Source: an uncultured Ignavibacteria bacterium
GTDB taxonomy: Bacteria > Bacteroidota > Ignavibacteria > Kapaibacteriales > Kapaibacteriaceae
DNA: 50,545 nucleotides
Direction: 5' to 3'
Assembly: GCA_937870915.1 (NCBI GenBank)
Contig: CALMZQ010000154.1
Location: 1-50,545, forward strand
Shown here: one piece after another, positions 3,597 through 47,548 of the stretch
Numbering within the stretch: position 1 is the first letter of the stretch
How the letters are laid out: every line of letters begins with the position of its first letter
Made by a program: the position numbers and the translations under genes
The notes under the pieces: generated by a model
The model's database searches: none
Told to the model about the DNA's origin: nothing
The model's input: only the letters and a program-made list of their open reading frames with translations

Positions 3597-3605
3597 GTGC
3601 TTAGG

Positions 3606-4721: not shown

Positions 4722-4748
4722 GGTGTTTCCTAAAACGTGGTGTTTGTG

Positions 4749-5417
4749 TTAATTCAATGTCTGGTAGGTAACAGGGGGCTCATCAGACTTCAGCCCCTTG
4801 ATCATAAGGCAGGCAATGCTGTGGAGCATGAACTCTACGTCGTGCGTCATCCATTCTGGTGGGAGCATGTTGTTTCGAAGGATCACCATCGCCCCTTTCA
4901 ATGAAACGATCAACTGCACAACGATGTCTTGGATGGGTTGATCGATGAAGAAGACCTTTTTATTTACTCCCTCCTGAACAACTGATGTGAGTAGTTCCAT
5001 CATTCGTTGATTCACAGAGCGGAAGTGACAGACTGGTTCACTCTCAGCATCCTGTTGGATCAGCGAGCGTATGTTGAACTGCGTCATCACCTGATAGAAG
5101 AACTCATTGCCCTTGGAGAAATCGTTGAACGTACCAATCGAAGCCAGGAGTTTCTTTTCAGGATCGATGTTGCTCTTCGTAACGCCTTCAAGCATTACGA
5201 TCAAGCGGTCGAAATCATCGGCTATCAACGCAATCAGAAGCTCATCGCGGTTTTTGAAGTACAGGTAGAGGGTGCCTTTTGCAAGTTCGGCCTCTTGAGC
5301 GATTCGGTCCATAGAGGTCTGTTCCAGCCCGTACTTCACAACGGCTTGTCGCGCCGATTCGAGGATATCGATCCGACGTTGTTCCTTTTCGCGTTCCTTT
5401 CGTTCTCGTACTCCCAT
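4749..5417 (-). CDS. TetR/AcrR-family transcriptional repressor of the efflux operon
   Basis: 222 residues from the ATG at 5415-5417, chosen because AAGGAG lies 6 bases upstream; a longer reading frame runs back into the tolC gene. The N-terminal helix-turn-helix spans roughly residues 15-65 and includes QTSMDRIAQEAELAKGTLY and YFKNRDEL, the standard TetR DNA-binding pattern. The C-terminal ligand-binding part is divergent, as is usual. It sits inside the operon, 10 bases after tolC and 27 before the adaptor gene. Self-control through the TGAC-N5-GTCA palindromes upstream of tolC is therefore likely but inferred. Confidence 0.92.
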   Translation of the reverse strand: MGVRERKEREKEQRRIDILESARQAVVKYGLEQTSMDRIAQEAELAKGTLYLYFKNRDELLIALIADDFDRLIVMLEGVTKSNIDPEKKLLASIGTFNDFSKGNEFFYQVMTQFNIRSLIQQDAESEPVCHFRSVNQRMMELLTSVVQEGVNKKVFFIDQPIQDIVVQLIVSLKGAMVILRNNMLPPEWMTHDVEFMLHSIACLMIKGLKSDEPPVTYQTLN

Positions 5418-5427
5418 GGTGATCTCC

Positions 5428-6762: not shown

Positions 6763-6813
6763 GGAGAGTTCCCTTTCGGTCGTCGTACGGGTATTGACGG
6801 GTAGTTGAATTTC

Positions 6814-6845
6814 TGACCAATGGTCACAAAATTGACGATTAGTCA
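6814..6845. promoter_or_regulatory. Paired TetR-type operators (TGAC-N5-GTCA)
   Basis: A perfect 13-base palindrome TGACCAATGGTCA (6814-6826) and a second copy with the same outer arms, TGACGATTAGTCA (6833-6845), lie 19 bases centre to centre. A further half-site TGGTCA is at 6859-6864. One copy touches the -7 element and spacer, and the other lies over the expected start of transcription. The arrangement fits repression by the TetR protein encoded in the operon; binding is inferred. Confidence 0.65.
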
Positions 6846-6857
6846 GCAATTAAGCAA
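6827..6857 (-). promoter_or_regulatory. Bacteroidota-type promoter of the tolC-tetR-MFP-RND operon
   Basis: On the minus strand TTG (6855-6857) is separated by 20 bases from CAATTTTG (6827-6834), a 7/8 match to the TAnnTTTG element. Transcription would begin near 6820, about 57 bases before the tolC start codon. The position relative to the two palindromes supports the call. Confidence 0.55.
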
Positions 6858-22400: not shown

Positions 22401-22621
22401 CGTCTTCGAATGCAATCATGATCGAAAGGGGCTCAACGTTCGTTCTTCCGTGGTATTCGGATGCGTTCAGCGTCTACTCGACCAATGGCGCCTATGTTGG
22501 ACAAGCGATCGCGGTATCTAGCTCAATCGAGAACGTAACGGTTTCGCTCCCGTCAGGAATAGCAAATGGCATCTACATTTTACGGAGCGGATCGATTACG
22601 AGATTGATCGCAGTTCATTGA
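19424..22621 (+). CDS. Large secreted protein of unknown function with T9SS sorting domain
   Basis: 1065 residues. The signal peptide MRTVLYAIAIALMAFSSTVHAQ is clear. The N-terminal part (residues 25-165) has a Cys-rich segment (ECGGCTFNG, MMCPDQ, KDCPPSSEV). A middle beta-rich part (about 300-600) contains a Cys pair in ICDLPLIGEACALLNDLPG and long amphipathic strands. The part at about 600-980 looks like repeated propeller blades of serine- and threonine-rich strands. The end (FSVYSTNGAYVGQAIAV...GIANGIYILRSGSITRLIAV) is a short T9SS domain. I do not recognise a catalytic family. No Shine-Dalgarno is present; the terminator T-run directly precedes the ATG. Confidence 0.72.
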   Translation: MRTVLYAIAIALMAFSSTVHAQRYDKLRVDAFATYVKYDWSLVQSNPCPGDHTIRLRTEPFDLQHVVDTEFPGTHYVGAAKLISVEFTPATYECGGCTFNGSAPVVNVGSMAVWATVHENGSIDIMMCPDQTLNGNEDPTEHGWTTTISGKDCPPSSEVTEPKGVWEGIFFGAHNPGSGSGRTGRGDYLGLMRSVQSSTSSDGRDAWSLRITPTASAFMAVKDGETTISISGKPNTPSVTDFTSRTESIYLHDVSAQDLHELTIDWAGSDENDRSAWFTINGLRVNADLSGNIASHTFDVGKDLPVGTVTIGGAADVAGIPARVDAQPLTRYVVPVPEWSAPAADFTASVQGRSVLYRRTFRWPDPKVEAFVSIPTIVPYVGGRWGLLPTGLEFNVEASSTGERRLGTIEGTGGIAIGKDHEYQITVRGSTEGWLTSTSLETEATTQLTFPVKLFRDERQLTSLLNDEIRPICDLPLIGEACALLNDLPGAGIISEVRGELSINARFRAEGSSFVWKDGSGTASITGEVRGLLDLFLASLFVRGGGTGTLAIDVPTWTARAGGRLEYEASGSVFGSWSFYGSGHFDIGTGRPNSDNDPHGIVLNLEDSLGFLASTSSINAHPSVCAIGTKIFIVAENEASTALEMTALENGSRTSVSFGNTSFLTSPSMIALNNGTMMVAAIMGDGTRPTLASTSEEMATFMRTLRVQTWTLTADLQIVDSATIVVPGRAVTSVKCLSADVTSCFIVASTTDGTTLTGSSTAPADIRVFRGSTMADQTILAAGLGGLSAWDVSVDANGVFTLATSTEKDGDVRNGLDGDITVQRGSVTDSPLPVLATIATTEDDRGVRLLSPMVSSTLPGLCWMRNGEIWGVATPQASAQKIIDTDTIIGAGFLQAVVVRGTSGNIVMWPSGNDLAALYINDEGLTASRIQSLVWSDVDLRPSAVMTTNGELAVATMRIDATTSKDLPTQSEIVVHTIDQETMTSVDETDPRSSSNAIMIERGSTFVLPWYSDAFSVYSTNGAYVGQAIAVSSSIENVTVSLPSGIANGIYILRSGSITRLIAVH

Positions 22622-23443: not shown

Positions 23444-25360
23444 TCACTCTTTCGATCTAAATACGAGCGACGTTGCACGTCGCCCATTTAAGTAAACTGA
23501 TACGGTGTACACTCCGCGGGCCACTTCAGGAACGATATAGGTTGATCGTCCCGTAACCACATCGATCTGATCAGCGATCGTTGGGATGATGTTCCCTGAC
23601 ATATCTGAAACACTTATGCGATCGACTTTTGATCCGTCCAACGAACGAACGGTGATCTCATTTCCGCCCCAATTCACCGAGTACTTCAAGAGTCCATCGA
23701 GAAAATCATTGGAACGTGGATATCGAAGACACGTATCTGTGAGCGTGATCATCCCATTACTTGACTTGAAGTCGTAGGGTACTTTGTTAACGTAGACCGA
23801 CGTTGCTATGATCGCAGAGCTGGACCGTGGTCCCAGGGCAGTCGTCACAAAGACCCTCCCATTATGCACAGATTCGCCCCTACGGTGCTGGATCGGGATT
23901 CTCACCCGTCGGACTATCTCATCACTTATTCCGATGGGTGTTGGGGAGATCGGTAGAGCTAGTTTGGCGTCCCATTCAAGTTCAAGCTCTAAAACGTCAT
24001 TGTCACGGAGATCTTCCGGATCGTTAACCGTCAATGAGAATGTGAACGAGGTGTCAACTCCCAGCTTTGAACTCACTGATCCTATGGATACACCGAACGA
24101 AGAATTCGGACGCGATCCACTAATCAGTGAAAAATTACCGATGGTCTCACCGCTCACGTGCCAGGGTTCCAATCCAACTCCTATGAAGTAGAGACTTGTG
24201 GGCGTGGCGACGAAGAGGCTGTCGCTAGCGAGATCCCATCTAGCAGTCAATGCAGATTCTTTCTTGAGATTATCAATACGGCCTAAACTTTGACTACGCT
24301 TGCCTCTTGAGTGATCTGTTCTTGCAATTATCGGAGGCATCAAACCAACTTCATTGTCAGCATCGCGCATAACAGAGAAGTTGTTCCATTTTTCGTCAAT
24401 GGCCCGGAGAAGTTGCCCTTTCTTAAGATCACGAACTACGACATAATTTCTTGTTCCATACACGACTTCATAAGAAAAGAGAGTTTCATCGGCGGAGAGA
24501 AGCGGTGGAGTGGCAAATGACATTGGTGAATACTCTCCCCACTCGAGACTCATCGTGCTAACATTCACCAAAAAAAAGGAATCCTCGGTTGCAACAATAA
24601 ACTTCGAGCTGTCCGCTGTTGGGAATATTCCTAGTATCATCTTATTAAAGGTCCTCTCAACCTCAACATTCGTTCCTGTTGAATCAAGCCTCTTCAACGA
24701 TGAACCAGAAGAGAAGACCAGTTCCTTGGAATCACCAATAAATGCGTAATGGTCCATTCTTCGAATCGAATCTGACACGGCATACACCGGCTTCTCTGGG
24801 TTGCTAATGTCAAACACTTCACCGATTCCATCGCGATAGCCGTCTCGAACCCCGGAATACCGACCATCTCGTGAGATCACCACAACTTGGTTAGTATTTG
24901 CAAACGACACTTCACGCCTTGCACCACTTGCCACATCAATAACTGTTATCCCGGGGGAGTCGGCATACGTCACGAAAACGAATTTCCGATTTCTTTGTAT
25001 CACAACGAGTTCGGCAGCTTTTGATGTTCTCTGAGAGGTCAATGGAAGCACTCTCACTGTTCGCGGAGGGAAACTGTGGTACCCCGATGCCCTCATCTGA
25101 CAAGTCTCGGGGAGGTAGTCGCTGTACGTCAAGGGACCAAAAACGCTGATATCCGTCCTGGGCTTGCTGAACGACCGTCCTTTATCAATTGAAAGCTGCC
25201 AGATAAGACCACTAACATCAACATCTGGATTGATACTGACCGGAATTCCGGGTTTAGTGAAATACGAATTGCCAGCTCTTGGTACTTCGATCTCCAGACC
25301 CTGTCCAGAGGAAACGATAGTGCAGCATATAACCACACATGCGTAAATCAGTAAACTCAT
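23444..25360 (-). CDS. Secreted beta-propeller protein with T9SS sorting domain
   Basis: 638 residues from the ATG at 25358-25360; a GTG two codons earlier is also possible. The signal peptide MSLLIYACVVICCTIVSSGQ is followed by an Ig-like N-terminal part (IEVPRAGNSYFTKPGIPVSI) and a propeller-like region (residues about 110-400) with repeated units such as GITVIDVASGARREV, GEVFDISNPEKPVYAV and FFLVNVSTMSLEWG, reminiscent of YVTN/LVIVD repeats. An Ig-like segment follows. The end (VDRISVSDMSGNIIPTI...VARGVYTVSVYLNGRRATSLVF) is a T9SS C-terminal domain. Function unknown; probably surface-exposed. Confidence 0.72.
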   Translation of the reverse strand: MSLLIYACVVICCTIVSSGQGLEIEVPRAGNSYFTKPGIPVSINPDVDVSGLIWQLSIDKGRSFSKPRTDISVFGPLTYSDYLPETCQMRASGYHSFPPRTVRVLPLTSQRTSKAAELVVIQRNRKFVFVTYADSPGITVIDVASGARREVSFANTNQVVVISRDGRYSGVRDGYRDGIGEVFDISNPEKPVYAVSDSIRRMDHYAFIGDSKELVFSSGSSLKRLDSTGTNVEVERTFNKMILGIFPTADSSKFIVATEDSFFLVNVSTMSLEWGEYSPMSFATPPLLSADETLFSYEVVYGTRNYVVVRDLKKGQLLRAIDEKWNNFSVMRDADNEVGLMPPIIARTDHSRGKRSQSLGRIDNLKKESALTARWDLASDSLFVATPTSLYFIGVGLEPWHVSGETIGNFSLISGSRPNSSFGVSIGSVSSKLGVDTSFTFSLTVNDPEDLRDNDVLELELEWDAKLALPISPTPIGISDEIVRRVRIPIQHRRGESVHNGRVFVTTALGPRSSSAIIATSVYVNKVPYDFKSSNGMITLTDTCLRYPRSNDFLDGLLKYSVNWGGNEITVRSLDGSKVDRISVSDMSGNIIPTIADQIDVVTGRSTYIVPEVARGVYTVSVYLNGRRATSLVFRSKE

Positions 25361-25464
25361 AGTCACAAGCCAATATTGAATTGATCTGTAAACGAGATTC
25401 GATGCAAAAGAATCGTTTCGAAGTTACGGAATCGAACTGGAGGAGAACGTTCGGATCAACACCA

Positions 25465-33510: not shown

Positions 33511-33541
33511 GCGCCCCGAGAACGGGACGTTCACGGGGCGC
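33511..33541 (-). terminator. Hairpin terminator after the cohesin lipoprotein gene
   Basis: GCGCCCCG (33511-33518) pairs with CGGGGCGC (33534-33541), and after one A-A mismatch the stem continues with GAAC/GTTC. On the minus strand CAGCCGTTTTG follows. The remainder of the 33384-33566 gap shows nothing else that I recognise. Confidence 0.65.
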
Positions 33542-33566: not shown

Positions 33567-34127
33567 CTAGGAGGGCTTTTTTACGTCGGCAGAAACCTTT
33601 GTTGGTGATTTGGCAACCGGTGGGTTGGCCACCGGGTGGGTGTAGATCTCCGCAGTAGTCAGTGTAAGTGCACTCGTTGGGTCTGCAGTTGGAGAGGAGA
33701 TGGTGAACTGCGCCACCGTTCCACTGCCAGTAACCCCAGTGAACCCCGAACTCTGTCCAAGAGCACTGATGGTGATTGTGCCATTGTCTTGATCGATGAT
33801 CTTATCTGACTCGATGATCGTGGCTCCTGATCTGCTGAGAAGGTTGTCTGACACCTCGCGAATTTTTAGACTTGAGACGTTGATCTTTGACGCATCAAAT
33901 GTTATCACAGCACGCCAAGAAACAAGTTTGTCTGCATTGCTGATCTTGAGTTTGATGGTTGCTGTTGATCCGGCTCCAAGGTAGATAGGAGCAGGATCCA
34001 GAGCCATCGTGAGTTCCGCCGGTGGTGGTGGCGGGTTCGTTGTATCGTCGCCGCTACATGAGCCAGCCACGATCACCATAACAGCGACCATGATCGTTCT
34101 AGCCAGGATAAAGAGTGTCGTTTTCAT
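33567..34127 (-). CDS. Lipoprotein with a single cohesin-like domain
   Basis: 186 residues from the ATG at 34125-34127, which has GAGGA about 7 bases upstream. The signal sequence ends in VAGSC (Cys24), and the following SGDD is acidic, as in surface-exposed Bacteroidota lipoproteins. A Pro-rich linker (NPPPPPAEL) leads to one beta-sandwich at residues about 40-155: PAPIYLGAGSTATIKLKISNADKLVSWRAVITFDASKINV, NGTITISALGQ, and GSGTVAQFTISSP. This is the pattern of cohesin modules (carrier sequence, FDAxKI, GxGxxAxxxF). It lies 34 bases downstream of the giant dockerin-bearing cargo gene, probably in one operon. Binding to that protein is inferred. Confidence 0.75.
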   Translation of the reverse strand: MKTTLFILARTIMVAVMVIVAGSCSGDDTTNPPPPPAELTMALDPAPIYLGAGSTATIKLKISNADKLVSWRAVITFDASKINVSSLKIREVSDNLLSRSGATIIESDKIIDQDNGTITISALGQSSGFTGVTGSGTVAQFTISSPTADPTSALTLTTAEIYTHPVANPPVAKSPTKVSADVKKPS

Positions 34128-34161
34128 TGTTGTCCTCACTGGATTTCGAATTGATCAATGG

Positions 34162-37100
34162 TCATCGTACAATAAGAAGGGGCACTGTAGAACGGTGACC
34201 TTCCGCATCGACGTGAACGAGGTAGGCCCCTTGAGGCAGATCCATAACGGAGAAGGATGCCTTCCCATTTCCATCACCGTCGAGTTCACATAACCATGTG
34301 GCCATGAGCCGACCGGTGATATCTGTAACAGTAGCTGTTGCCGTCCCAAAGTGTGGAGCACGTATGGTAAGTACAACAGTGCCGTTTGCCGGTGTAGGTA
34401 GAAGCGTAACCGCTTCGTTTTGCTCCGTTGCCTCAGCATAGATCACGTGAACACGACGATTCAACACATCGCGCGCATCAACGGCATGCAAGGTCAATCT
34501 CTCCGCTGCATTCACCGGACGATATCTCACGCGTAGTATGCCGCCGCTTCCGTTCACACCGTCCTGTGTCCGTGTAAGGCCTACGAGATCCGTGCGGAGT
34601 ACACCGGAACGTAGGTCCACAAAGCTGGATGGTGTTATCTGAGGTCCATCGAACAAGCCACCAATACTTACTCGGGCATTGCGCATGAGTGTAGGTTCGC
34701 CAATGACTACCATACCAAGACCGAGAAGCGTTCGTGCAGAAATCGCGTCAATTCGGAGTTCGCGTTCTCCACTCATAAGCAGGACATCTTCAACTCTGAG
34801 GGTAAGGGGCTCAGCAGGCACCATGCGGAGATCATCGATCTTTCCAAAGCCCCTTGTCCAGTTATACATCTGGGCAAAGACGATCTGATCTTCGAAGTTC
34901 ACGAGACCGTCTGGACGATATGGATAGGTTTCGATCATGAACGGTGGTGCTCCCGGAGCGTCACCAGTGATCATGGAGACCAAGTCTCCTTTGCGATCCG
35001 TCGTGTTCCAGTGTGAGACAAACACTGTGTAGTCGGGGAAATTCACGGCATTGTTGCCATCAAAGTCCCCGAGAAGGACACCTGTATGTCCGGCTGGTTT
35101 GTCGGAGTTAACCTTTTTGCCATCAACCCAGCATATGCCGCGCATATCGGATTCGTTGTTGAAGGACCACGTTGCGGGGTCACCATCGATTACATCGTAA
35201 GAACCGGGCTGAAGTGTCTGATTGATGTCAACGATCCATAAGGCATTGTCAACCGTGCCACGCTTTTCACCGCGCGGATTCCACGGTCCATAGACCTGAC
35301 CTGTTTGGGAGTTCTTGATGGTAAGTGGCTTCGGTGCTCCTCCCTTTGCATGCAACGTTTGTACACGTGTGATAACGTATGGTTCATTGATCTGGAACGT
35401 GGCCGGTTGCGCCGTGCCATTTGTAGGATCAGCATCATTGAAATTCGTGAAGACAGATCCCACGCCGGATCCAGGTCCGTTTGTGGCTGTTGCACAGACC
35501 AATTCCCCATCGCGTGTACGCGCGGCGATGTTCGCATTCACGGCATTGCGCAATTGAGCGCGTGTGATACGAACCGTTGAACGTGCCGTTGTGCTCTTTG
35601 CGCGGAAGGTAAGGTAGTACATCGGTCCGCTTCCTTGTACGCCGGCAGGGTTACCGCCAACGCGGACAACATTCAGCGTGATGCGACCATTGCCGGCATC
35701 ACTGAAGGTACTCAGGTCGCTGAGGATATCACGTGGTGGCGGACTTAGGAACTCACCTTCGCGATGGCCAACAAGCTCTACTTGGGCAGGATCGAACTCA
35801 ACGTTGATCTCGGCGCCCATAAGCCCCTTACTATCCGTGATGTTCCTGACACTTACGGCTAGAGTTGAGGTTGCATTTCCAGGAGGCAGCGTTGTTTGCT
35901 CAGCATCGATGAAGACCACAGCTTCGGAGGTATTGACCGGAGCTTTGTAGTTCTTGGAATCGGACTTCGTGACGATGGTTGTTGGCTTGTCTTTTAGAGG
36001 AGCGGTCATAACCACCTTCACATTCCTCGTGGATCCGTCTCGTTTCTGATTGGTGGTTGTATACCGCATACGATAGGCGTTTCCGAGTGTGGAAGCCGCT
36101 TCGTCGTTCGCTTCATCGAGATCATCGCCCTTGGTGTACATCCGTCCCCCGCTTCGTTCAGCGAGTGCACGTAGGGCTGGGTCGCCCTTGATATCGGTTA
36201 CGCCGAGGATGAAGACTGGAACGCCTTTTGATGCAGCATTCTGCGTTGCAAAGGCTGCAAACTGCGGATCCGTGATGCGACCGCTTGTGAGGACCACCAC
36301 GATCTTGTATTTCTCAGGCTGCAGAGCTGCTTTGTCCACAGCTTCGGTGATCGCGGACATGATCACGGCTTCCTCACCCGTTGGACCGGGCTGGAGGGCT
36401 GCTTGGATCAGTGCATTGGCATCATTTGTGAAGTCGATCTTCTGCTGCACGACATCTGCGAATTGGAAGAGTGTGATCCTCCAGTTTGGCTTCATGTTCT
36501 CGGCCATACCCTGCACAAGTGCTACCAGTTGCTGCTTTGTTGAATCAGGGATTCCCGTGCTTCCGTCAATGACGATGGCAGCGGCAGCCGGTTCATTTTC
36601 ATTGGGCTTACTTGCGGACTTCGTGTCCATGGAGAACAGTTGCTTAACACCATCTTCGAACAATTCAAAGTTCTCAAACGTGAGGTCGCCAAGCATTCCT
36701 TCCCGGGCCTGACCAACTGTTACGTTGATATCCACAACCGGAAAGTCTGTTGGGTTGCCAATTGTATTGATGTCGATGCTGCTGAGTGCAACATTGATCG
36801 AGTCGTTTCTGACTGATGCCGGACCTTCTACTACTCCGCCACCATCACATGACTTTGACGTGAATTGCGTGAGATCGCAGAGGACCAGTTCAGCCCGGTC
36901 ATCGAACATCTCAACCCACGTGACGTCGTTCTTTCCTGCCGGCTTCCTGTCGTAATACGTCCAAGGTATGTTGGTCTGCATCACCGACGTGGTCTTGGAG
37001 ACCAACACCGGACATGGCCAGTTATCGGTGACGTTGTAGACATAAGCGCCGCCACCTTGTTTCGAGGTGTGGTTGATCTTTGTTGCTGCGATCATCACCT

Positions 37101-39765
37101 TGCCGTTGGCAAAGCCGATCGAAGGCACGTACCAATATTGAACTGGATCACCGATGGACTTGGCAGTGCTAAGCACGCCATTCTTCGCTGTCAGATACGT
37201 CATCTGCGTTGCTCCGGCATCTGCGTCATTCTTGCTGGACGTGTAGACGATGTGTACGGTACCTGTAGCATCAACGGCAAGGTCAGATCCACCTACACGT
37301 GCGAGATCCGAAGCAACAGTGACACCCGTGTTCCATGGCCAGCCACGCCAATCTCTCAAGACGAGCTTGTATCTCTCAGGAGTGACAGATGTCTGTTCGG
37401 CGTAGATAAGATAGAGTGCATTATCGGGACCTGCACCGAGCACCGGAGATGTAGCACCCGATCCGAATGCGTCATCATTCGGTATTGAGGTTATGGCCGT
37501 TTCCGGTTCCCACGTAACTCCCGCATCATTTGATATGCGGTGCTTGATGTTGTAGGGAGGATCGCTCCATCCATGTGCGGCATAATACACGGCATGCAGT
37601 CTGCCTTGTGTATCAAAAGCAATGTGTGCGCCATAGTCCCAATCACCCCATCCCTGATCATGCAGATAGAATGGGGCTGACCACGTTGCACCACCATCAA
37701 CTGAACGCTTGTAGTAGCTACCTACATTGAATTGGCCTGCTACATGGAGTGTTCCGTTTGCATCAACGAGCAGCGCATTGGTATTGCTTGAATTCGGTTC
37801 AGATTCAGTCCGAACCGGTGTTGACCATGATGTGCCGTCGTTTGTGCTCTTTGTATGGTAGACATATCCAGGAGCGATCCAATATTGTGCGTGGAGTGTT
37901 CCGTTCGCTTCACGAGCCGTGGTAACTCCATTCATGGAAGTCATCAGTCCTGGATAGTAGTCACCTTCCCATGTTGGCGTTCTGGAGGCAATTGCTTTAT
38001 CACATCCTTCCCCTGGTTCGGTACCACCGCCGGTTGAGGCCGCGAATGCAACGTCTACATGATTCTCATTGTTGATCGTGATCGTAGCTGTGGACGGAAC
38101 AAACGTTGTTCCCTGACGCTTAGGAGTGATGGTAATCGTGCCATTGTTCACACCGTTAAGTGCGAAGTATCCATTGGCATCAGTAACACCCATTTTACCG
38201 TCACCAGAAACCTCCACGCCGGCAAGCCCCTTACCATTAAGCATTACTCTACCGGTGACACTGAATCCAGATCGCTTCCCTTCCCAACCACCAGACCATG
38301 CCGTACCTCCAATGCCGTAGCGCCAGTTTCCGGTGAATGATGTACAATTCTCAGACATCGTAAAGTCAATGTCGCCTGCATCGTGAGAAGGGGCATATGA
38401 CGGATACTCAGACCACAGGCCTGTGAGTTTCGTCCCAACGACTCTTCCGTTGATGCGTCCACCGTCATGGGTGTATGTACCCCACACGCTGTCGGCCACT
38501 TGCTGTAGCACCATCGTGCCCCAGTTTGTCGTCCACGTCCCAGCCCAGGTGCACGCAGATGTACCGCCACCGCCACCCCCGCCCCCTTCACCATTCCTGT
38601 AGAGGATGGTCTTGTAGTTTGAGGTTGTGCTTTGAATGTTCATGTCATCGCTCGTGCCTGTTGAGAGCACATCTACATCACCGTCGTTGTCAAGATCTGC
38701 AACGGTGGCATAGCCGTGATTCGTTGGACGTAGCACTGGTCCGGCGCTGAACGAACCACCCGTGTTCTTAAAGAACTTCGAGATTGGTCCAACGGCATCG
38801 CGATGGAAGCCCGTCACAAAGAGGTCCAGTGTGCCGTTCTTATCGTAATCTGTCCATTGCGCGTAGCAAGTTCTGTCTGCAGCTTCAATATTCGTTGCCG
38901 GTAGCTTCGCAAAGGACGTTCCACCATCATTACGATAGAGATGAGATTTTCTGTTGTCACCGGAACCGGTCCAGCCGGTCACGTAGAGATCAGCGTCTCC
39001 GTCCTTATCGTAGTCTCCCCAAGCACCCCAAGCACTACTAGCATAGCCTTCAAAGGATGCAGAGACTGCAGTAAAGTTCAATCCACCTGCATTATGGTAC
39101 AGCTTTCCGCTTAGGGAACTGCTCGATCTGCCGCAGATGAAAACGTCCATAAGACCATCTTTGTCATAGTCTCCGGCAGTTGCCATGAGGGCAGATTCAA
39201 AGCTTACGATGGCCTTAGCAAAGTTGCCACTTGAATTCGTGTAGATCACCACTTGGTCCCCGGCACCTACACCTGCAAGCAGAACGTCTAGGTCGTTGTC
39301 GTTATCGAGATCGGTCCAAAAGGCCGATGCGGCCCACGCAGACGACTCCGGCGACATAAGCGAAACGCCGATGTCTGTGAACGTGAAATTCCCGTCATTG
39401 CGAAAGATTTTTCCGAGCCCTGCGGTTGTTGTTCTACCGATTAGAAGAAGGTCCGGGTCTCCATCCTTGTCATAGTCACCAAACGAAGCCCATCCGGCAA
39501 GTGCAACGGCGGGGATTGTCGTTGGACGTTCAGTGAACGTCATGTTCCCATCGTTGCGATAGAGTTTAACGGCGAGTGTCTTTCCGTCTGCCGACGTAGA
39601 GCCGGAGAGAAATACATCAAGGTCGCCATCCTTATCGATATCTGCGGTAGCAACCATGCTCTGCCACATATTCGGCATGCCGGTTGGTACTTCTGTAAAG
39701 GGGCTCTGTGCACGTATTGAAGCGGCTGTGAGCAGGAAGGCAAGGGTAGTGATAAACCGTAACAT
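34162..39765 (-). CDS. Giant multidomain T9SS cargo: FG-GAP, sialidase-like, VWA, cohesin-like and dockerin-like modules
   Basis: 1867 residues from the ATG at 39763-39765, preceded by AGGAGGTACC. Approximate order: signal peptide 1-20; seven FG-GAP/VCBS repeats 30-365 (GDYDKDGDPDLLL, DLDNDNDLDVLL, YDKDGDADLYV), fitting one seven-bladed propeller; eight-Gly linker near 395; a WAGTW-type beta-barrel 400-498; a carboxypeptidase-regulatory-like domain 498-578; BNR/sialidase-like blades 590-955; VWA domain about 1010-1225 with the metal site reading DGSTG instead of DxSxS; cohesin-like 1280-1425; dockerin-like EF-hand pair 1560-1640 (GDFDGNNAVNFPD and PDGLVNFED); a second cohesin-like module 1650-1775; T9SS domain 1778-1867. 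The protein is exported and probably surface-attached. Its ligand is unknown. Confidence 0.85.
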   Translation of the reverse strand: MLRFITTLAFLLTAASIRAQSPFTEVPTGMPNMWQSMVATADIDKDGDLDVFLSGSTSADGKTLAVKLYRNDGNMTFTERPTTIPAVALAGWASFGDYDKDGDPDLLLIGRTTTAGLGKIFRNDGNFTFTDIGVSLMSPESSAWAASAFWTDLDNDNDLDVLLAGVGAGDQVVIYTNSSGNFAKAIVSFESALMATAGDYDKDGLMDVFICGRSSSSLSGKLYHNAGGLNFTAVSASFEGYASSAWGAWGDYDKDGDADLYVTGWTGSGDNRKSHLYRNDGGTSFAKLPATNIEAADRTCYAQWTDYDKNGTLDLFVTGFHRDAVGPISKFFKNTGGSFSAGPVLRPTNHGYATVADLDNDGDVDVLSTGTSDDMNIQSTTSNYKTILYRNGEGGGGGGGGTSACTWAGTWTTNWGTMVLQQVADSVWGTYTHDGGRINGRVVGTKLTGLWSEYPSYAPSHDAGDIDFTMSENCTSFTGNWRYGIGGTAWSGGWEGKRSGFSVTGRVMLNGKGLAGVEVSGDGKMGVTDANGYFALNGVNNGTITITPKRQGTTFVPSTATITINNENHVDVAFAASTGGGTEPGEGCDKAIASRTPTWEGDYYPGLMTSMNGVTTAREANGTLHAQYWIAPGYVYHTKSTNDGTSWSTPVRTESEPNSSNTNALLVDANGTLHVAGQFNVGSYYKRSVDGGATWSAPFYLHDQGWGDWDYGAHIAFDTQGRLHAVYYAAHGWSDPPYNIKHRISNDAGVTWEPETAITSIPNDDAFGSGATSPVLGAGPDNALYLIYAEQTSVTPERYKLVLRDWRGWPWNTGVTVASDLARVGGSDLAVDATGTVHIVYTSSKNDADAGATQMTYLTAKNGVLSTAKSIGDPVQYWYVPSIGFANGKVMIAATKINHTSKQGGGAYVYNVTDNWPCPVLVSKTTSVMQTNIPWTYYDRKPAGKNDVTWVEMFDDRAELVLCDLTQFTSKSCDGGGVVEGPASVRNDSINVALSSIDINTIGNPTDFPVVDINVTVGQAREGMLGDLTFENFELFEDGVKQLFSMDTKSASKPNENEPAAAAIVIDGSTGIPDSTKQQLVALVQGMAENMKPNWRITLFQFADVVQQKIDFTNDANALIQAALQPGPTGEEAVIMSAITEAVDKAALQPEKYKIVVVLTSGRITDPQFAAFATQNAASKGVPVFILGVTDIKGDPALRALAERSGGRMYTKGDDLDEANDEAASTLGNAYRMRYTTTNQKRDGSTRNVKVVMTAPLKDKPTTIVTKSDSKNYKAPVNTSEAVVFIDAEQTTLPPGNATSTLAVSVRNITDSKGLMGAEINVEFDPAQVELVGHREGEFLSPPPRDILSDLSTFSDAGNGRITLNVVRVGGNPAGVQGSGPMYYLTFRAKSTTARSTVRITRAQLRNAVNANIAARTRDGELVCATATNGPGSGVGSVFTNFNDADPTNGTAQPATFQINEPYVITRVQTLHAKGGAPKPLTIKNSQTGQVYGPWNPRGEKRGTVDNALWIVDINQTLQPGSYDVIDGDPATWSFNNESDMRGICWVDGKKVNSDKPAGHTGVLLGDFDGNNAVNFPDYTVFVSHWNTTDRKGDLVSMITGDAPGAPPFMIETYPYRPDGLVNFEDQIVFAQMYNWTRGFGKIDDLRMVPAEPLTLRVEDVLLMSGERELRIDAISARTLLGLGMVVIGEPTLMRNARVSIGGLFDGPQITPSSFVDLRSGVLRTDLVGLTRTQDGVNGSGGILRVRYRPVNAAERLTLHAVDARDVLNRRVHVIYAEATEQNEAVTLLPTPANGTVVLTIRAPHFGTATATVTDITGRLMATWLCELDGDGNGKASFSVMDLPQGAYLVHVDAEGHRSTVPLLIVR

Positions 39766-42130: not shown

Positions 42131-43201
42131 TTAGCCCTCTGTACCCCAGTCAACAAGCAACGAGAATCGCAAGGTGTTACCAAGTGGGTGATTCTGTTCT
42201 ACCGTGAGGTAGTAGCTGAAGTCAACCTTGAAAACATCATAACGAACGCCCGCACCGAGAGTGAAGTACTCACGTGCACCTGCTGCTGCCGGTTCAGTGA
42301 AATACCCGCCACGGAGAGCCACGATTCGGTCATAGATGTACTCCATACCGATACCGGTTTCGATGCCGCCAGTACCCCATGCCGTGATAAAGGATTTAGG
42401 GATTGGGTCAGAACCAAGGGAATCGCGCTTAACGAGGAGCTTCATGAAGTCCGCTGTGATCGTGAGATCATTAAACTCATCTTCAACGAGCTTAAAGGCA
42501 ATTCCCAGACGAAGGTTCGTAGGCAAAGGGTCTGACTCTTTGTCGTAGGTCATTTTGGGACCTACGTTCTGGAGGTTCACACCAAGGCGCAGCGTGTTAT
42601 CGAGATTGGCGCCGAAGATCGACAACTTTGATGGGCGCCAAAGGAAGCCAAGGTCAAAGGCACCCGAAACACCCGTTCCGGCACCCGACTGACCAACGCT
42701 TGCAGGCGCTAGGTTCGATTGAATGTACTTGATCTGAACACCGGCGCCGAGGTCCGGAGAGATCTCCGTACCGTAGGAAAGGCCGATGCTGAATTCGTTC
42801 GATCGGAATTTGCCCAAGGCCTGACCACTTTCATTCGTCTTGGTGAATTCACCAAGATTCATGAAGATGAACGTACCGGCGAGTGTACCACCGATAGCGT
42901 CAACATATTGGCCATATGACCCATATGAGTAGAAGAGGTCCGCATTGAACTGCGGAAGCCACTTCGAATAGCTCAGGGCTACCTGATTAGAGGCCTGATT
43001 AAAAGCCAGACCACCAGGGTTCCAAAACACAGCATTGATGTCATCTGCGAGGGCAGTTCCAACGTCACCCATGCCGCTAGCGCGTGCATCGGGGCTGATG
43101 AGCAGAAACGGGACCGCAGCGCCGCCTGCCTGACCGTACGATACGGCAGCAGTTAGCACAAAGGTGGTCATCAGAATTCCGCAAGAGCGGATCAGCGTCA
43201 T
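42131..43201 (-). CDS. porV: Type IX secretion system outer-membrane protein PorV (LptO)
   Basis: 356 residues with AGGAGAG 5 bases upstream of the ATG. The signal peptide MTLIRSCGILMTTFVLTAAVSYGQ is followed by AAVPFLLISPDARASGMGDVGTALADDINAVFWNPGGLAF, the strongly conserved opening of PorV/PorQ proteins, then a FadL-like beta-barrel (IGLSYGTEISPDLGAGVQIKYIQSN; FGANLDNTLRLGVNLQNVGPKMTYD) ending in LRFSLLVDWG. PorV shuttles folded cargo from the translocon to PorU. It lies 33 bases downstream of porU, the gene order seen across T9SS bacteria. Confidence 0.93.
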   Translation of the reverse strand: MTLIRSCGILMTTFVLTAAVSYGQAGGAAVPFLLISPDARASGMGDVGTALADDINAVFWNPGGLAFNQASNQVALSYSKWLPQFNADLFYSYGSYGQYVDAIGGTLAGTFIFMNLGEFTKTNESGQALGKFRSNEFSIGLSYGTEISPDLGAGVQIKYIQSNLAPASVGQSGAGTGVSGAFDLGFLWRPSKLSIFGANLDNTLRLGVNLQNVGPKMTYDKESDPLPTNLRLGIAFKLVEDEFNDLTITADFMKLLVKRDSLGSDPIPKSFITAWGTGGIETGIGMEYIYDRIVALRGGYFTEPAAAGAREYFTLGAGVRYDVFKVDFSYYLTVEQNHPLGNTLRFSLLVDWGTEG

Positions 43202-43234: not shown

Positions 43235-46200
43235 TTAGCGAATGAGGCTTAGTTTCCCACTCACGAAGCTGACGCCGCCGAATTCATCGGTCAAACGAAC
43301 TACAGCTTGATACATTCCGGTTGAGGCTGGGGAGCCAGCATTGTCCCGTCCGTCCCAGACAACATCAGCCGTTTGCATGTCGGTTATGCGCATAGGTCGC
43401 TCGGCGATCTGTCTGCCCTCAACGTCATATACAAGCAGCACTGCTTCGAATGGTCTAGGACTGGCATGCGTGAAACGTATTGTAGTACTCGATGAGAATG
43501 GGTTAGGGAAATTGCTGACGCCTTCGGCAGGAATCCCTTCGTCTGCCGTGACAATACGGAATGTAGTGGAGGCTTCGCTCACGTTGTTTAGGACGTCCCA
43601 AGCCTGAACATGCACGTTATGAAGACCATTCCCAAGACCAAAGATCTGCTTCTGAGCAGTGCCAGCACGACTGTTCGTAAGTGAGGTGGTGAAGTTCGGG
43701 GTTAAAATCTCTACGAGACCGCCAGAATTGAATGTGGCTTGAATATCGTGTCCAATGCCAACACCCGTAGTATTGATTCCTGTAGCATCCTCCAGATCAA
43801 CAATGAGGATAGGGTTAGGACGAACAATACCGCCTGCTAGGAATTTCCGAGAATCAAGATAGATAGAGATGGATGGGCCATCGGTCTCGGGGTCAATGAT
43901 GCTGGTAACTCCATCTACAATAACTCGATCGGTAACACCCATGGCAAATCGCTGATCTTCACTGGCAGCATAGCCATAAAGTCCAGCGGATTGCGATGAG
44001 AAGGAGATGTCCTTAGGAACAACGAATGTACCGGTGAACCGGCCGTTCTCAACCTTGAACGAACCTCTGCAGAGAGCCGGACCCGATTTTGTGAATGTAT
44101 TGACAGTGTTATAGATATCTGTGTCTATCACCGTAAGGGTTCGTTGAGCATCGAGAAGTGAGATGGTAACGTTACCGGTGAAAGAGCCATCTGTAGTGGA
44201 ATCCACTGAGCCAATGATATCGCCTTCCACAACTACGGTACCAAGGGCGGAGACTGTTACTTGTTGTCCGGCCTTTGTGATATCCTCGCCGTTAAGCTTT
44301 GTGAAGCGTACGCGCTGCTCTGGTATGAGTATACGCATGGTTGGATCGCCGAGAAGATGGAATTTCTCATCGTTGTTCCCATTCTTCTTTTGTTTCACAC
44401 GGAACATAGCCTCGCCGAGAGTTGGATATTGTCCGTTGACATCTCTTGTGAACAGATCCGTATAGAATTCTTCGTTCAACTCAGCGTTAGCTAGAGAGAA
44501 CACAACACGCGCTGCAGAGAACACACCGATAGCGCCTCCCGTCTCAAGCAGGATGAGCTCCTCTGCTCCAGATTGAAGTTCCGTCATATCCCAACGAGAG
44601 AAGTCACACGTGGCTGCCGTTAAGAAGAATGGCTTATTAACGTTTGACATAGCCTGAGGTGTTGTTTCGCGAGTAAAGATCTGCTCATGAGACCACACAC
44701 GCGGATTTCCGTGACCGATCCAGTTGAGGATCAAGGTGCCATTCGTGTTGATGGTAGACACCATATCCTGTGTTACTGTTGGTTTCCGCCTGCCACTTGC
44801 CACATTCTCTGTAGGATATTCTACCATATAGAGCTTGCGGATCTGAAACTCTTTGGGGATAAAACTTTCCGCTAGCGTTTCGTTCTGGTCCAGGTGTGTA
44901 GAGCGATCTGAGAGGCCATCTCCTTGTTGTCCGTCATCAGCAATGAGTGTGATACGAGTACGCCAATCGTCGAGTGAGGCGGCTCCCTCATAGTTGCGGA
45001 TTTTCTCGGTAAGTCTATCACCTACAGGGTCACTGGTTACGGGTAGTCTACCGAGTGCAAGTTCTGGTCGGTTGTCATTACCGGCTACACGCACAAAGAA
45101 GTCATCTGTGGTATAGGTAACCAAGCCATAGTCTTGATCATCAGGGTCGAGGCTCTCGTAAGGAATAATGAAATTGGTCTGCGAGGTTGAGATGTTTTTG
45201 TAATCAAAATGGCCATCTCCCCAGAACAGTACGGAAGATGGACGTGGTGACCAAGATGCATACGCCATGGCAATAAAGTCGCGAATGGCCGTTGGATCCT
45301 GCATACCATACGAGAACTGTGCATAGATCTCATCCGTTGTTACAACTGTAGCTCTTACGAGACCCTTGCTTGTTCGGTAATCTGCATACCGTTGTGCTGA
45401 TGCTTGCAATGACGGATGGGTGATAACTAAGAGATCGGCTGAGCGTGGTGTTGTGCTGAGGTTTGGGTAGGTAATGCGAGAGAGAGATGTGGAGCGAAGG
45501 TTTGAAGACGTAAAATACCTGCGAGACGTGGTGCCGATATCTTCACGAACAACAAACATGCCGCCCGTCTCGGATACATTCTCAATCAGCTGTGGCCGAG
45601 TGCGATCTGTTACGTCGAAACCAAAAAGATCACCGGAAAATCCGTTCACTGCGTACTCATGAACACCGGCGCCGTCCGCGGTCCAGAACTCAAATTCACC
45701 GTCTGCTGCCTGGAGCTGACGTGGATAGTGGATCTCGAACCAATCCAACATGCCGGATGATGCCTTGTCTGTGCATGAATACGCGATCTTCAGCACACTT
45801 CTTCCGTCAGAAGGAAGAACCTGTGCGCTGATCGTACCCTTACCGAAGGTGCTATAGGCGTCCATGTATTTGGGGACGGCCCGAACAATGCTCTGCGCCA
45901 CAAACGTTGCGTTTTCTGTGAACGTTGCCGTTCCCGATGTTGTGCCGCGATGGGCAACCACATAACGATACTCTACATTACCCGAGCGAACAAGTCCCGG
46001 AAGTAGAGTATTCACTACAATTGAACCTCCGTTTTCGATGGTGCGGCCAAACCAACGTCTGCCGGATCCCGACGAATATGGACTCTGGATTTCTTCTTCA
46101 TTAAACACCCGTCCGGTAACAATGGACGGCCGCGTTGTTGGTTCTAGCGAAGATCCGCTGCGGGCAGTGGCACGAAGTCCGTCTATACCACCATATGACA

Positions 46201-47191
46201 GGTAATACGCACTTACTGTAGAGTAGTGATTGATATAGTGCTCAACAGTAGATCCGCTCTTTGCCCAACCTGTAGTTGCTGAGGCATAGAAGATCACATC
46301 ACGAACGGAGCCATCCCCATTTGTTCGTACGATGATGGGTTGTTCGCGTAAGGTGCTGGACGCAGCTGAGTCCACGGGCTCAGGCAGTTCCATTCCGCCC
46401 CTTCCAAATACACGGATCGACCGTGCGGAGGCAGCATCTGTTGGAACACCGGCATTACGCAACTGGTCGGATGTAACGCGGTAAATCCCTTCCCTATCAA
46501 TGGTCATTCGCAACATGTTGTTGAATGATTCAATGGCCTGCACAGATTCTCCCTTGACCAAACGATCAACCGAACGAGATATCTGCCAAGGGGCTTGGGG
46601 GTTCAAAACGTCAAGTGTAGATAGCGTACGAGCTGTTCCAACACCTGATCCGCTGAACGTCAGTTCGAGGTCCACATTTCGCGTAATCGTGGTCCGAGCG
46701 TTCTCCCTCGACGCTACAACGATCGTCACCCTTGCAATGTGCCTGTCGCCGGCAATACCATCATAGGCTACAGTTACGCGCTCCGTGAGGGGGCGGGGTG
46801 CGCGAATTCGCGCGTCGGCGTCGCGTTGCTCTACGGTGAATGGTAGGCTCGACCCAAGAGTGAACGTACGCACGTCATTTCGGTTGAGTCGGAATCCATT
46901 CGGACCCGGGACGATAACATCTACGGACACGGTCCATTGTATTGTGCTGCCGTCTGCCGAGACATGAATTTGCGCGCCATCGATCACAGGACGTACTGAT
47001 TTGCCATCAGTGGCTACCACAGTGTCCCACGATCTAATCGATGGAACGTAGGTGAAGCTCAAAGCCTTGGTCGATCGGTCGCGTACAGTGAACCCCTTCG
47101 GTACGCGCGCTACCAATGTTGTTGGAACCACGATCAGTGCCAGAACAAGGAGGCAGATCATTCGGTTTACCAAACGGATGGGATGGGTCAT
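43235..47191 (-). CDS. porU: Type IX secretion system sortase PorU (C25 cysteine peptidase)
   Basis: 1318 residues from the ATG at 47189-47191 (MTHPIRLVNRM then a hydrophobic signal LLVLALIVVPTTLVA). A longer open frame exists, but it runs through the tRNA-Gly gene and its terminator. The N-terminal region (about 25-540) is the usual PorU beta-rich part. The gingipain-like C25 domain follows (LLVITHPSL, FWGDGHFDYKN, LALGRLPV, NWIGHGNPRVWSHE with His827, LTAATCDFSRWD with Cys862, HLLGDPTMRIL). The C-terminus has an Ig-like/FlgD-type domain opening NFPNPFSSSTTIRF. PorU cleaves the CTD signal of cargo and attaches it to surface lipopolysaccharide. Confidence 0.93.
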   Translation of the reverse strand: MTHPIRLVNRMICLLVLALIVVPTTLVARVPKGFTVRDRSTKALSFTYVPSIRSWDTVVATDGKSVRPVIDGAQIHVSADGSTIQWTVSVDVIVPGPNGFRLNRNDVRTFTLGSSLPFTVEQRDADARIRAPRPLTERVTVAYDGIAGDRHIARVTIVVASRENARTTITRNVDLELTFSGSGVGTARTLSTLDVLNPQAPWQISRSVDRLVKGESVQAIESFNNMLRMTIDREGIYRVTSDQLRNAGVPTDAASARSIRVFGRGGMELPEPVDSAASSTLREQPIIVRTNGDGSVRDVIFYASATTGWAKSGSTVEHYINHYSTVSAYYLSYGGIDGLRATARSGSSLEPTTRPSIVTGRVFNEEEIQSPYSSGSGRRWFGRTIENGGSIVVNTLLPGLVRSGNVEYRYVVAHRGTTSGTATFTENATFVAQSIVRAVPKYMDAYSTFGKGTISAQVLPSDGRSVLKIAYSCTDKASSGMLDWFEIHYPRQLQAADGEFEFWTADGAGVHEYAVNGFSGDLFGFDVTDRTRPQLIENVSETGGMFVVREDIGTTSRRYFTSSNLRSTSLSRITYPNLSTTPRSADLLVITHPSLQASAQRYADYRTSKGLVRATVVTTDEIYAQFSYGMQDPTAIRDFIAMAYASWSPRPSSVLFWGDGHFDYKNISTSQTNFIIPYESLDPDDQDYGLVTYTTDDFFVRVAGNDNRPELALGRLPVTSDPVGDRLTEKIRNYEGAASLDDWRTRITLIADDGQQGDGLSDRSTHLDQNETLAESFIPKEFQIRKLYMVEYPTENVASGRRKPTVTQDMVSTINTNGTLILNWIGHGNPRVWSHEQIFTRETTPQAMSNVNKPFFLTAATCDFSRWDMTELQSGAEELILLETGGAIGVFSAARVVFSLANAELNEEFYTDLFTRDVNGQYPTLGEAMFRVKQKKNGNNDEKFHLLGDPTMRILIPEQRVRFTKLNGEDITKAGQQVTVSALGTVVVEGDIIGSVDSTTDGSFTGNVTISLLDAQRTLTVIDTDIYNTVNTFTKSGPALCRGSFKVENGRFTGTFVVPKDISFSSQSAGLYGYAASEDQRFAMGVTDRVIVDGVTSIIDPETDGPSISIYLDSRKFLAGGIVRPNPILIVDLEDATGINTTGVGIGHDIQATFNSGGLVEILTPNFTTSLTNSRAGTAQKQIFGLGNGLHNVHVQAWDVLNNVSEASTTFRIVTADEGIPAEGVSNFPNPFSSSTTIRFTHASPRPFEAVLLVYDVEGRQIAERPMRITDMQTADVVWDGRDNAGSPASTGMYQAVVRLTDEFGGVSFVSGKLSLIR

Positions 47192-47302
47192 GCTTGGAAC
47201 TGAATCAGGTGTGCGAAGTACAACGATATCGGTTGCTCCAGCACTAGAGACGCTGGACCTCACATGTATTGTGTCTAATGACACGCTAAAGTTACGCGGG
47301 AT

Positions 47303-47346
47303 AAAAAAATGCCTCGCCATCAGGGGGGAATGAGATGGCAAGGCAT
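47303..47346 (-). terminator. Rho-independent terminator of the tRNA-Gly transcript
   Basis: A 13-bp stem with one wobble (47309-47321 with 47334-47346) and a 12-base loop is followed on the minus strand by seven T. It separates the tRNA from porU, whose promoter must lie between 47192 and about 47300 (a partial element TAACTTTA is at 47287-47294). Confidence 0.9.
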
Positions 47347-47380
47347 GCAGCATAAAGAGGAAGTGACGACTCGCGTCGTC

Positions 47381-47455
<75 letters not shown>

Positions 47456-47548
47456 TAAGAACAGTACAAAACTACGCCTGTGGGGTGGCATAGTCAATGC
47501 CTTTTTTGAACCGTCGTCGTAACCCCTAGTCTCTACCCATTGTTAGCA

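Follow-up and report, generated by a model that had tools for sequence, protein, structure and literature searches.

Organization of the locus

The 50.5-kb contig CALMZQ010000154.1 of an uncultured Ignavibacteria bacterium from a lake (referred to here as the window, the whole stretch of 50,545 nt that was analysed) belongs to a 3.3-Mb genome. On its minus strand it encodes a 186-residue lipoprotein with a cohesin-like module, directly downstream of a 1867-residue protein, the cargo, which combines a dockerin-like EF-hand pair with a sorting signal of the type IX secretion system (T9SS). Considering the evidence presented below, we think it likely that the two genes constitute a surface-docking unit, in which a cohesin-dockerin bond of the non-cellulosomal kind would tie the cargo to the lipoprotein at the outer membrane.

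Transcription runs from PorU and PorV via an aldehyde-dehydrogenase-like gene, named by eye only, to the cargo and finally the lipoprotein (Table 1). An original prediction, made from this DNA alone, had placed the last two genes, and a rereading of the sequence showed that their coordinates, strand and order are correct. Throughout, G000 denotes the source genome, other G numbers the genomes of relatives and L numbers the regions or loci examined.

The cohesin-like lipoprotein

The lipoprotein is modelled as a cohesin fold. The AlphaFold2 model, with a predicted local distance difference test (pLDDT) of 80.0 and a predicted template modelling score (pTM) of 0.76, had cohesins as its 46 best entries in the PDB (Z 15.3 to 11.4), headed by 4uyp_A (Z 15.3, root-mean-square deviation 2.4, 136 positions aligned), and Foldseek ranked the non-cellulosomal Archaeoglobus cohesin 2xdh first (E 8.3e-8). 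Moreover, a hidden Markov model (HMM) built from 14 partner cohesins of relatives, all from other genomes and with the window, G003 and G339 excluded, matched the lipoprotein with 27.6 bits (E 1.1e-6 among 11,254 open reading frames). The cohesin-like sandwich that had been predicted behind a lipobox is borne out by a PF00963 match together with the model, with the proviso that the former stays just under the curated cut-off of 24.1 bits. A sequence search of the PDB with the lipoprotein alone gave three matches, at E values of 0.35-0.76, none of them a cohesin.

The N-terminus, as read by eye, contains an AGSC lipobox followed by SGDD, with acidic residues at +4 and +5. For surface-export signals of Bacteroidetes, the accessible text describes polar or positive residues, followed by acidic ones, within +2 to +6 (PMC5080379); going by the same text, the motif found here is near but not identical to K-(D/E)2 or Q-A-(D/E)2. 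The protein is the smallest complete one among the lipoprotein partners printed, and no extra domain lies between the lipobox and the cohesin.

The dockerin-like module

On its sequence, the dockerin of the window is a divergent subtype. In the predicted dockerin-like EF-hand pair, judged by the calcium-ligand positions of EF loops, loop 1 (DFDGNNAVNFPD) is complete, with D or N at ligand positions 1, 3, 5 and 9 and D at position 12. Loop 2 (PYRPDGLVNFED), however, is degenerate in that it lacks ligands at positions 1 and 3, and a Pfam PF00404 match is lacking. The model NF041540 gave 16.8 of 29 bits, and 21.8 bits in a genome search, under the cut-off both times. Over 98 columns, the dockerin of the window and that of G003 share 83% of their residues, as compared to 73% identity for the whole cargo. 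Although the curated models are marginal for both the dockerin and the cohesin, the structure, the sequence matches with the partner-cohesin HMM and the conservation of the dockerin lift the pair above these scores.

Modules of the cargo

Two further cohesin-like modules reside in the cargo itself. The first (residues 1300-1403) obtained 23.5 bits with PF00963 in hmmscan (E 7e-5), under the cut-off; in the genome search it exceeded the cut-off with 30 bits, and it was matched by the partner-cohesin HMM with 35.1 bits (E 5.5e-9 among the same 11,254 frames). The second scored 4.6 bits with that HMM, and is in effect undetected by sequence; its assignment rests on the alignment of relatives and on a model of the cargo tail. 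That model is poor overall (pLDDT 56.2, pTM 0.40), with blocks of pLDDT 58-85 over model residues 371-500, the part that holds this module. Its top matches in the PDB are cohesins, the best being a cohesin dyad, and a sequence search of the PDB with the cargo tail gave no match. The dockerin had been described as flanked by two cohesin-like modules; an unnamed module of about 130 residues, however, separates the first from the dockerin. A relative of this unnamed module stands alone in a 148-residue protein of G309 (L080) that has a lipobox by eye, and L081 (G476) was matched as well.

The FG-GAP and VWA domains that were predicted for the cargo were found at high significance, and the predicted sialidase-like domain gave a match, but one under the cut-off (Table 1). 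At the C-terminus, the sorting domain just meets the cut-off of TIGR04183 (23.3 bits versus 23) and stays below that of PF18962 (20.8 of 27 bits). No glycoside hydrolase or cellulase family of Pfam scored above its cut-off in the cargo. The candidate terminator behind the lipoprotein gene was noticed by eye and is missing from the automated hairpin list, for which the loop limit was 8 versus the loop of 15 nt. Three other large proteins of the source genome (L003, L004 and L005; G000:C189, C183 and C13) show a weak cohesin match (20.9, 20.4 and 15.4 bits) before what looks by eye like a T9SS tail; no dockerin was seen in them.

Table 1. Features of the docking locus, in the order of transcription
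Feature	Coordinates	Strand	Basis or remark
PorU	43235-47497	-	NCBIfam
PorV	42131-43201	-	NCBIfam
T9SS cargo, 1867 aa	34162..39765	-	
FG-GAP repeats, 7 stretches	38596..39642	-	PF13517 E 2.3e-33; outer limit approximate
Carboxypeptidase-regulatory-like module, residues 502-573	38047..38262	-	PF13620, under its cut-off (25.6 of 32.3 bits)
Sialidase-like BNR module, residues 611-838	37252..37935	-	PF13088 (BNR_2) 25.9 of 31.4 bits, below cut-off
VWA module, residues 1007-1255	36001..36747	-	PF00092 E 1.6e-14; TIGR03436 E 3.3e-21, 76.1 of 81.25 bits
Cargo cohesin module 1, residues 1283-1427	35485..35919	-	PF00963 and partner-cohesin HMM
Unnamed module of ~130 aa, residues 1428-1558	35092..35484	-	
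Dockerin-like EF-hand pair, 'FED' subtype (our label), residues 1560-1645	34831..35088	-	
Cohesin-like module 2, residues 1646-1787	34405..34830	-	Alignment and model
T9SS C-terminal sorting domain, residues 1790-1861	34183..34398	-	TIGR04183
Intergenic gap, cargo stop to lipoprotein ATG, 34 nt	34128..34161	-	
Cohesin lipoprotein, 186 aa	33567..34127	-	
Signal peptide and lipobox (...VIVAGS, then C, then SGDD)	34059..34127	-	By eye, sequence only
Cohesin module of lipoprotein, residues 37-186	33570..34019	-	HMM and structure model
Candidate terminator, perfect 8-bp inverted repeat, 15-nt loop, T4 a short way behind	33511..33541	-	By eye

Presence and absence of the pair in near relatives

Both genes were found in two of the 11 genomes of the genus (G000 and G003) and neither was found in the other nine; within the reach of these searches, the lipoprotein and the cargo are present or absent together. 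A full-length cargo was found only in G000 and G003 among the 149 genomes searched (G000 included), where absence means no full-length match among the three candidates scored per genome. The lipoprotein search of the 149 genomes returned the same two genomes, the gene being cut by a contig end in G003. Local matches of low score also turned up in G020 and G140, with a second one in G003. The nine other genus members gave no match with the lipoprotein, the partner-cohesin profile or NF041540 and no full-length cargo among the candidates scored, and five of them are listed without a match to the dockerin-plus-cohesin-2 model described below. The flanking genes adjoin with neither pair gene between them in 14 of the 20 relatives whose neighbourhood was fetched, and PorU and PorV are kept at the same place in relatives without the pair. 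It had been argued that relatives that keep one gene alone would speak against the pairing; none were seen among the 11 genus members searched, but in four of the 32 dockerin-positive genomes of the wider set no separate partner gene was found.

The dockerin subtype and its neighbouring cohesin gene

Local HMMs made at first missed the window pair, one run showing only the lipoprotein of G003, and that weakly; for this reason models of the subtype itself were built. The dockerin-plus-cohesin-2 model, which has four rows (window, G003, G339 and G147), matches 31 of 288 genomes of the class, G000 included. One best place was taken in 29 of the 30 other matching genomes (G506, which matched with the cohesin part only, was not fetched); within this sample no gene of L279 or L280 reached the dockerin threshold, and the region of L254 stopped short of the next gene downstream.

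A separate cohesin gene was found immediately downstream on the same strand in 12 of the 29 genomes, with gaps of -34 to 195 nt, and within four genes in 14. Among neighbouring pairs of the same regions whose first gene lacks these modules the count was 3 of 105, and all three lie inside such clusters. Earlier models, built independently of these neighbours, give an immediate downstream count of 8 of 29. In four further genomes of the 29 the cohesin gene directly precedes a giant of this kind (G596, and another place in each of G624, G523 and G409), and in G558 it lies one gene upstream. Four second places show the partner downstream in L283 (G134) and L284 (G613), upstream in L282 (G409) and absent in L281 (G413). 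The same arrangement is present in G339, a member of another family of the phylum.

In total, a separate partner cohesin gene was found in 28 of the 32 dockerin-positive genomes (in 27 the matching open frame is at most 500 residues long, and G339 adds partners of 548 and 799 residues), and a match in any frame in 30. The predicted pairing of a cohesin lipoprotein with a dockerin-like T9SS cargo recurs well beyond the source genome, beside the same dockerin subtype. A phylum-wide search with a two-row model of the tail found, besides G000, three of 395 genomes, one of which (G339) has the dockerin and the second cohesin; the four-row model did better. A scan of genome contigs with the cargo tail yielded 38 pattern matches and one confirmed relative, a Lake Pavin record.

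A parallel system with PF00404-type dockerins

Adjacent dockerin and cohesin genes also occur with dockerins that PF00404 does recognise. The sample consisted of the best listed PF00404 match in the 60 top-ranked of 119 matching genomes (53 fetched plus 7); it is mostly of another dockerin type, and our own dockerin HMM left the target gene unlabelled in 12 of the 60. A cohesin gene lies immediately downstream in 15/60 (15/41 with a close same-strand neighbour) and upstream in 2/60 (2/26 with a neighbour), and in background pairs the second gene has a cohesin in 19/387, 13 of these being the dockerin gene itself. Another 20 regions, chosen partly for having both modules on one contig, were not used as a sample. 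The 27 partner genes in all regions read encode one to three detected cohesins each, mostly behind a Sec-like start as judged by eye. Profile-profile comparison of the window pair with this operon type gave low probabilities, namely 10.2% for the lipoprotein (E 0.0031), 3.9% for the dockerin (E 0.011) and 36.5% for the cargo tail (E 0.00037), and we have therefore relied on the nearer partner set.

The PF00404-type giants (L143, L148, L150, L152, L153, L155, L166, L182, L187, L189, L196, L198, L212, L215, L217, L218, L219 and L220) end in a dockerin, with or without a cohesin, and a T9SS C-terminal domain (CTD), and stand directly before a gene that encodes one to three cohesins and, in most cases, a CTD, which reads like a parallel scaffold operon. 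In L197 (G203:C99) a frame of 2140 residues with five detected cohesins is the second gene after a cohesin-dockerin T9SS protein.

Two partner types and the form of the dockerin loop

The partners of the window subtype are of two types. The first, Coh-CTD, is a Sec-signal protein with a cohesin and a T9SS tail and was found at eight loci (L142, L256, L257, L258, L259, L273, L277 and L283). The second is a lipoprotein with a C-terminal cohesin, counted by its N-terminus in 16 genomes; these calls were made by eye, a regular expression having missed L284 and picked up two doubtful ones, L262 and L273. The lipoprotein partner adjoins the giant in the window, G003, G379, G508, G561, G631, G248 and G613, lies upstream of it in G596, G624, G523 and G409 and one gene off in G558, and does not adjoin it in the stretch read of G130 (about 8 kb off), G501 and G538. 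When five lipoprotein partners of other genomes were compared with the Pfam cohesin family, L264 passed with 25.7 bits and four failed (15.6, 23.0, 13.6 and 13.7 bits).

In the adjacent pairs, a relation was observed between the partner type and the form of the dockerin. Where a lipoprotein lies directly downstream (eight dockerins, that of the window among them), loop 1 is complete in every case, as against none of the nine with another partner, although these 17 loci are not independent events, since window/G003, L264/L265 and L256/L257 are sisters in both the dockerin and the cohesin tree. The dockerins of the nine other loci carry an insertion in loop 1 of the alignment, and 15 of the 16 dockerins printed have a loop 2 from which ligands 1 and 3 are missing. 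Out of sample, six lipoprotein loci (L315, L316, L317, L318, L319 and L282) are without the long insertion, loop 1 being complete only in L318, and two Coh-CTD loci (L255 and L266) have it. Thus, the insertion marks the partner type better than the full ligand set does. In the dockerin tree, the window and G003 group with the lipoprotein-partnered dockerins (support 0.971).

The giants of the relatives that were scanned contain beta-helix, Reelin-like, HYDIN-Ig or GLUG modules, or the T9SS tail alone. No glycoside hydrolase catalytic family was found at E 0.001 in 12 of these giants (8 plus 4, some cut by region edges and two of the other dockerin type). In L258, L273 and L283 a second partner gene (L258:8541-9707, L273:5370-6563 and L283:5566-6945) has a cohesin near its N-terminus, and the one in L258 ends in two EF-hand-like repeats (PF00404 weak, 16.9 bits), so that it looks like an adaptor with both socket and plug. 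A scaffoldin-like cluster of neighbouring T9SS proteins, one with four cohesins and one with two cohesins plus a dockerin, is found in L326 (G248:C16).

A proposed surface-docking unit and its alternatives

In the docking unit that we consider likely, the cargo should cross the outer membrane in view of its T9SS signal, and would be exported by that system. The lipoprotein would be anchored in the outer membrane with its cohesin exposed to the outside, and this cohesin would bind the dockerin and hold the cargo at the surface. Since distant relatives often keep the pairing, the pair probably holds giants on the cell surface. Cargo cohesin 1 could take a second dockerin, which would give short chains, and cargo chaining via its own cohesin and dockerin, as was suggested originally, is possible. 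With respect to the proposal that the lipoprotein docks the cargo as a surface scaffold, the pairing of cohesin lipoprotein and dockerin cargo is upheld, but the term scaffold exceeds the evidence: given one lipoprotein cohesin and one cargo, the pair reads as an anchor. To judge from its FG-GAP, BNR-like and VWA modules, the cargo serves in adhesion or in binding to a matrix rather than in polymer digestion, and such roles are favoured because the relatives' giants were scanned without yielding a glycoside hydrolase catalytic family.

Various observations weigh against this reading. PF00963 gives the lipoprotein 22.0 bits in hmmscan (E 2.1e-4) and 21.6 bits in the genome search, both short of the cut-off, and PF00404 has no match in the genome even at E 5. 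The alignments supplied to the structure predictor included cohesins of our choice, which biases the models toward a cohesin fold, so that they are not blind. Non-cohesin sandwiches rank directly below the last cohesin (PilA pilin, Z 11.3; BspA, Z 11.2), and the dockerin stretch of the tail model is of low confidence (block pLDDT 30-61). Surface exposure of the lipoprotein is uncertain, because most other lipoprotein partners miss the two acids directly after the cysteine and G003 has one. In addition, the cargo has a T9SS signal of its own.

The counts from the relatives call for similar caution. Four of the 12 immediate neighbours (L263, L265, L269 and L271) were picked by eye and then served as seeds of the counting model; the Pfam cohesin family matches L269 at E 9.8e-5, L263 at 0.019 and L271 at 0.078, L265 being outside that scan. 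The partner profile holds rows from 13 of the 28 counted genomes, and a separate gene is present in 15 of the 19 row-free ones. Dockerins without a separate partner gene were found in G147, G573, G534 and G581, that of G147 being a row of the search model; like the window's, the dockerins of these four have no loop insertion. In the cohesin tree the window joins G339, a Coh-CTD partner (support 0.853), and only then the lipoprotein clade (0.794). Finally, the distances of the dockerins correlate better with those of the partner cohesins (0.775) than with those of the CTDs in the same polypeptide (0.337; partial correlation 0.74), but the excess vanishes within the Coh-CTD group (0.527 versus 0.553) and is small within the lipoprotein group (0.972 versus 0.924), and the overall correlation therefore mainly represents the split between the groups. 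We take it as a sign of two classes of pair rather than of coevolution at the level of residues.

An alternative is that the dockerin binds cohesin 1 of another or the same cargo molecule, with the lipoprotein cohesin as a side partner or unrelated. In line with this, the partner-cohesin profile gives cargo cohesin 1 a higher score than the lipoprotein (35.1 versus 27.6 bits), and for the other dockerin type there are loci with cohesin, dockerin and cohesin in one polypeptide and no adjacent cohesin gene detected (L145, L146, L147, L154 and L165). Nevertheless, only one (L277) of 32 giants of the window subtype (8 of them edge-cut) at the 29 loci shows a cohesin before the dockerin at the threshold used, yet a downstream cohesin gene is present at 12 of the 29 loci. 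The joint presence or absence of lipoprotein and cargo in the genus argues in the same direction, and we regard binding between or within cargo molecules as the unlikely arrangement.

Still less probable, in our view, is that the modules are ordinary sandwiches and EF-hand repeats that do not bind each other, with adjacency reflecting the co-regulation of surface proteins. Cohesin-like modules are indeed common in this lineage, as PF00963 at E 0.01 matches 116 of the 149 relatives and other large proteins of G000 contain a cohesin with no dockerin seen; the marginal scores of dockerin and cohesin with the curated models and the 4 of 32 dockerin genomes without a separate partner gene fit as well. 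Co-regulation alone is, however, difficult to reconcile with the position-specific enrichment (12/29, or 8/29 with the independent models, versus 3/105), with the preference for downstream over upstream positions for the other dockerin type (15/60 versus 2/60), and with the fact that the form of the dockerin loop tracks the partner type in adjacent pairs.

The presence of the PorV and PorU genes next to the pair in the window could indicate that the lipoprotein, instead of anchoring the cargo permanently, is a transient helper of secretion or maturation that acts at the translocon or in the periplasm. We consider this very unlikely, as the partner carries a T9SS tail at eight loci, a feature that does not sit well with a helper in the periplasm, and relatives keep PorU and PorV at that place without the pair. 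A cellulosome is rejected, as the cargo has no cellulase domain, the pair has no multi-cohesin scaffoldin, and the genome has no PF00404 dockerin, while two other models each pick out a single dockerin-like module in it.

Relation to known systems and significance

The cohesin fold of the lipoprotein is shared with the non-cellulosomal modules of Archaeoglobus, to which the Foldseek match points; the window pair differs in that it consists of a T9SS cargo, a lipoprotein cohesin and a divergent dockerin. The cohesin and dockerin proteins of Archaeoglobus fulgidus are encoded by the neighbouring genes AF2375/AF2376. In clostridial cellulosomes of type I/II, the cohesin is the surface anchor and the dockerin is on the anchored protein. 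The model of the window lipoprotein resembles those cohesins, but here a lipoprotein replaces the surface-layer homology (SLH) anchor, a cellulase domain is absent from the cargo and a multi-cohesin scaffoldin from the pair, and the dockerin is unrecognised by PF00404.

As far as the accessible text goes, archaeal non-cellulosomal cohesins and dockerins bind specifically and strongly, and such modules occur in diverse bacteria and archaea (PMC9012536). Anaerobic methanotrophic (ANME) archaea and their partner sulfate-reducing bacteria (SRB) have non-cellulolytic extracellular cohesin/dockerin proteins according to the consulted parts of two papers, the SRB one of which proposes a role in adhesion (PMC9012536, PMC10553843); these are other lineages, and a lipoprotein anchor is not among the features described in those parts. 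For Ca. Stygibacter (Cloacimonadota), the text available reports a CTD-bearing multi-cohesin scaffoldin of 3,755 residues, to which dockerin enzymes were inferred to dock (PMC8542988). It resembles the present case, on the same text, in being a surface-attached cohesin protein of a Gram-negative lineage, there via a conserved C-terminal domain; in the window, the giant carries the dockerin, the small gene a single cohesin, and the cargo no enzyme family above cut-off. The combination of a multi-cohesin protein and a dockerin glycoside hydrolase was the target of a survey published in 2024 that covered 305,693 genomes (PMC11557425), and given these criteria the window pair would fall outside it. 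For Melioribacter roseus, the part consulted states that no cellulase gene has dockerin or scaffoldin domains, which covers cellulases only (PMC3534657). In the literature searched (titles and abstract openings, with few subscription papers) no description was found of lipoprotein cohesins paired with a T9SS dockerin cargo.

If the proposed docking is true, it would provide a second, non-covalent hold for a giant T9SS cargo, with the socket encoded next door, it would account for the way in which lineages retain adhesins of very large size at their surface, and it would be a new source of orthogonal cohesin-dockerin pairs. Known T9SS cargo is attached to the surface via its C-terminal signal in a sortase-coupled reaction. 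We can only tentatively suggest, as an idea that may well turn out otherwise, that lipoprotein cohesins are a general means of outer-membrane retention for T9SS giants in the class to which the Kapabacteria belong, as an alternative to attachment via that signal, with the type of socket, a lipoprotein or a CTD-anchored cohesin, matched to the form of the dockerin loop.

Elsewhere in the window, two long genes, 19424-22621 on the plus strand (1065 aa) and 23444-25366 on the minus strand (640 aa), are without a Pfam match at E 0.001, and the stretch 195-6849 on the minus strand contains a set of efflux genes, which encode an AcrB-type pump, an HlyD-type adaptor, a TetR regulator and an outer-membrane channel.

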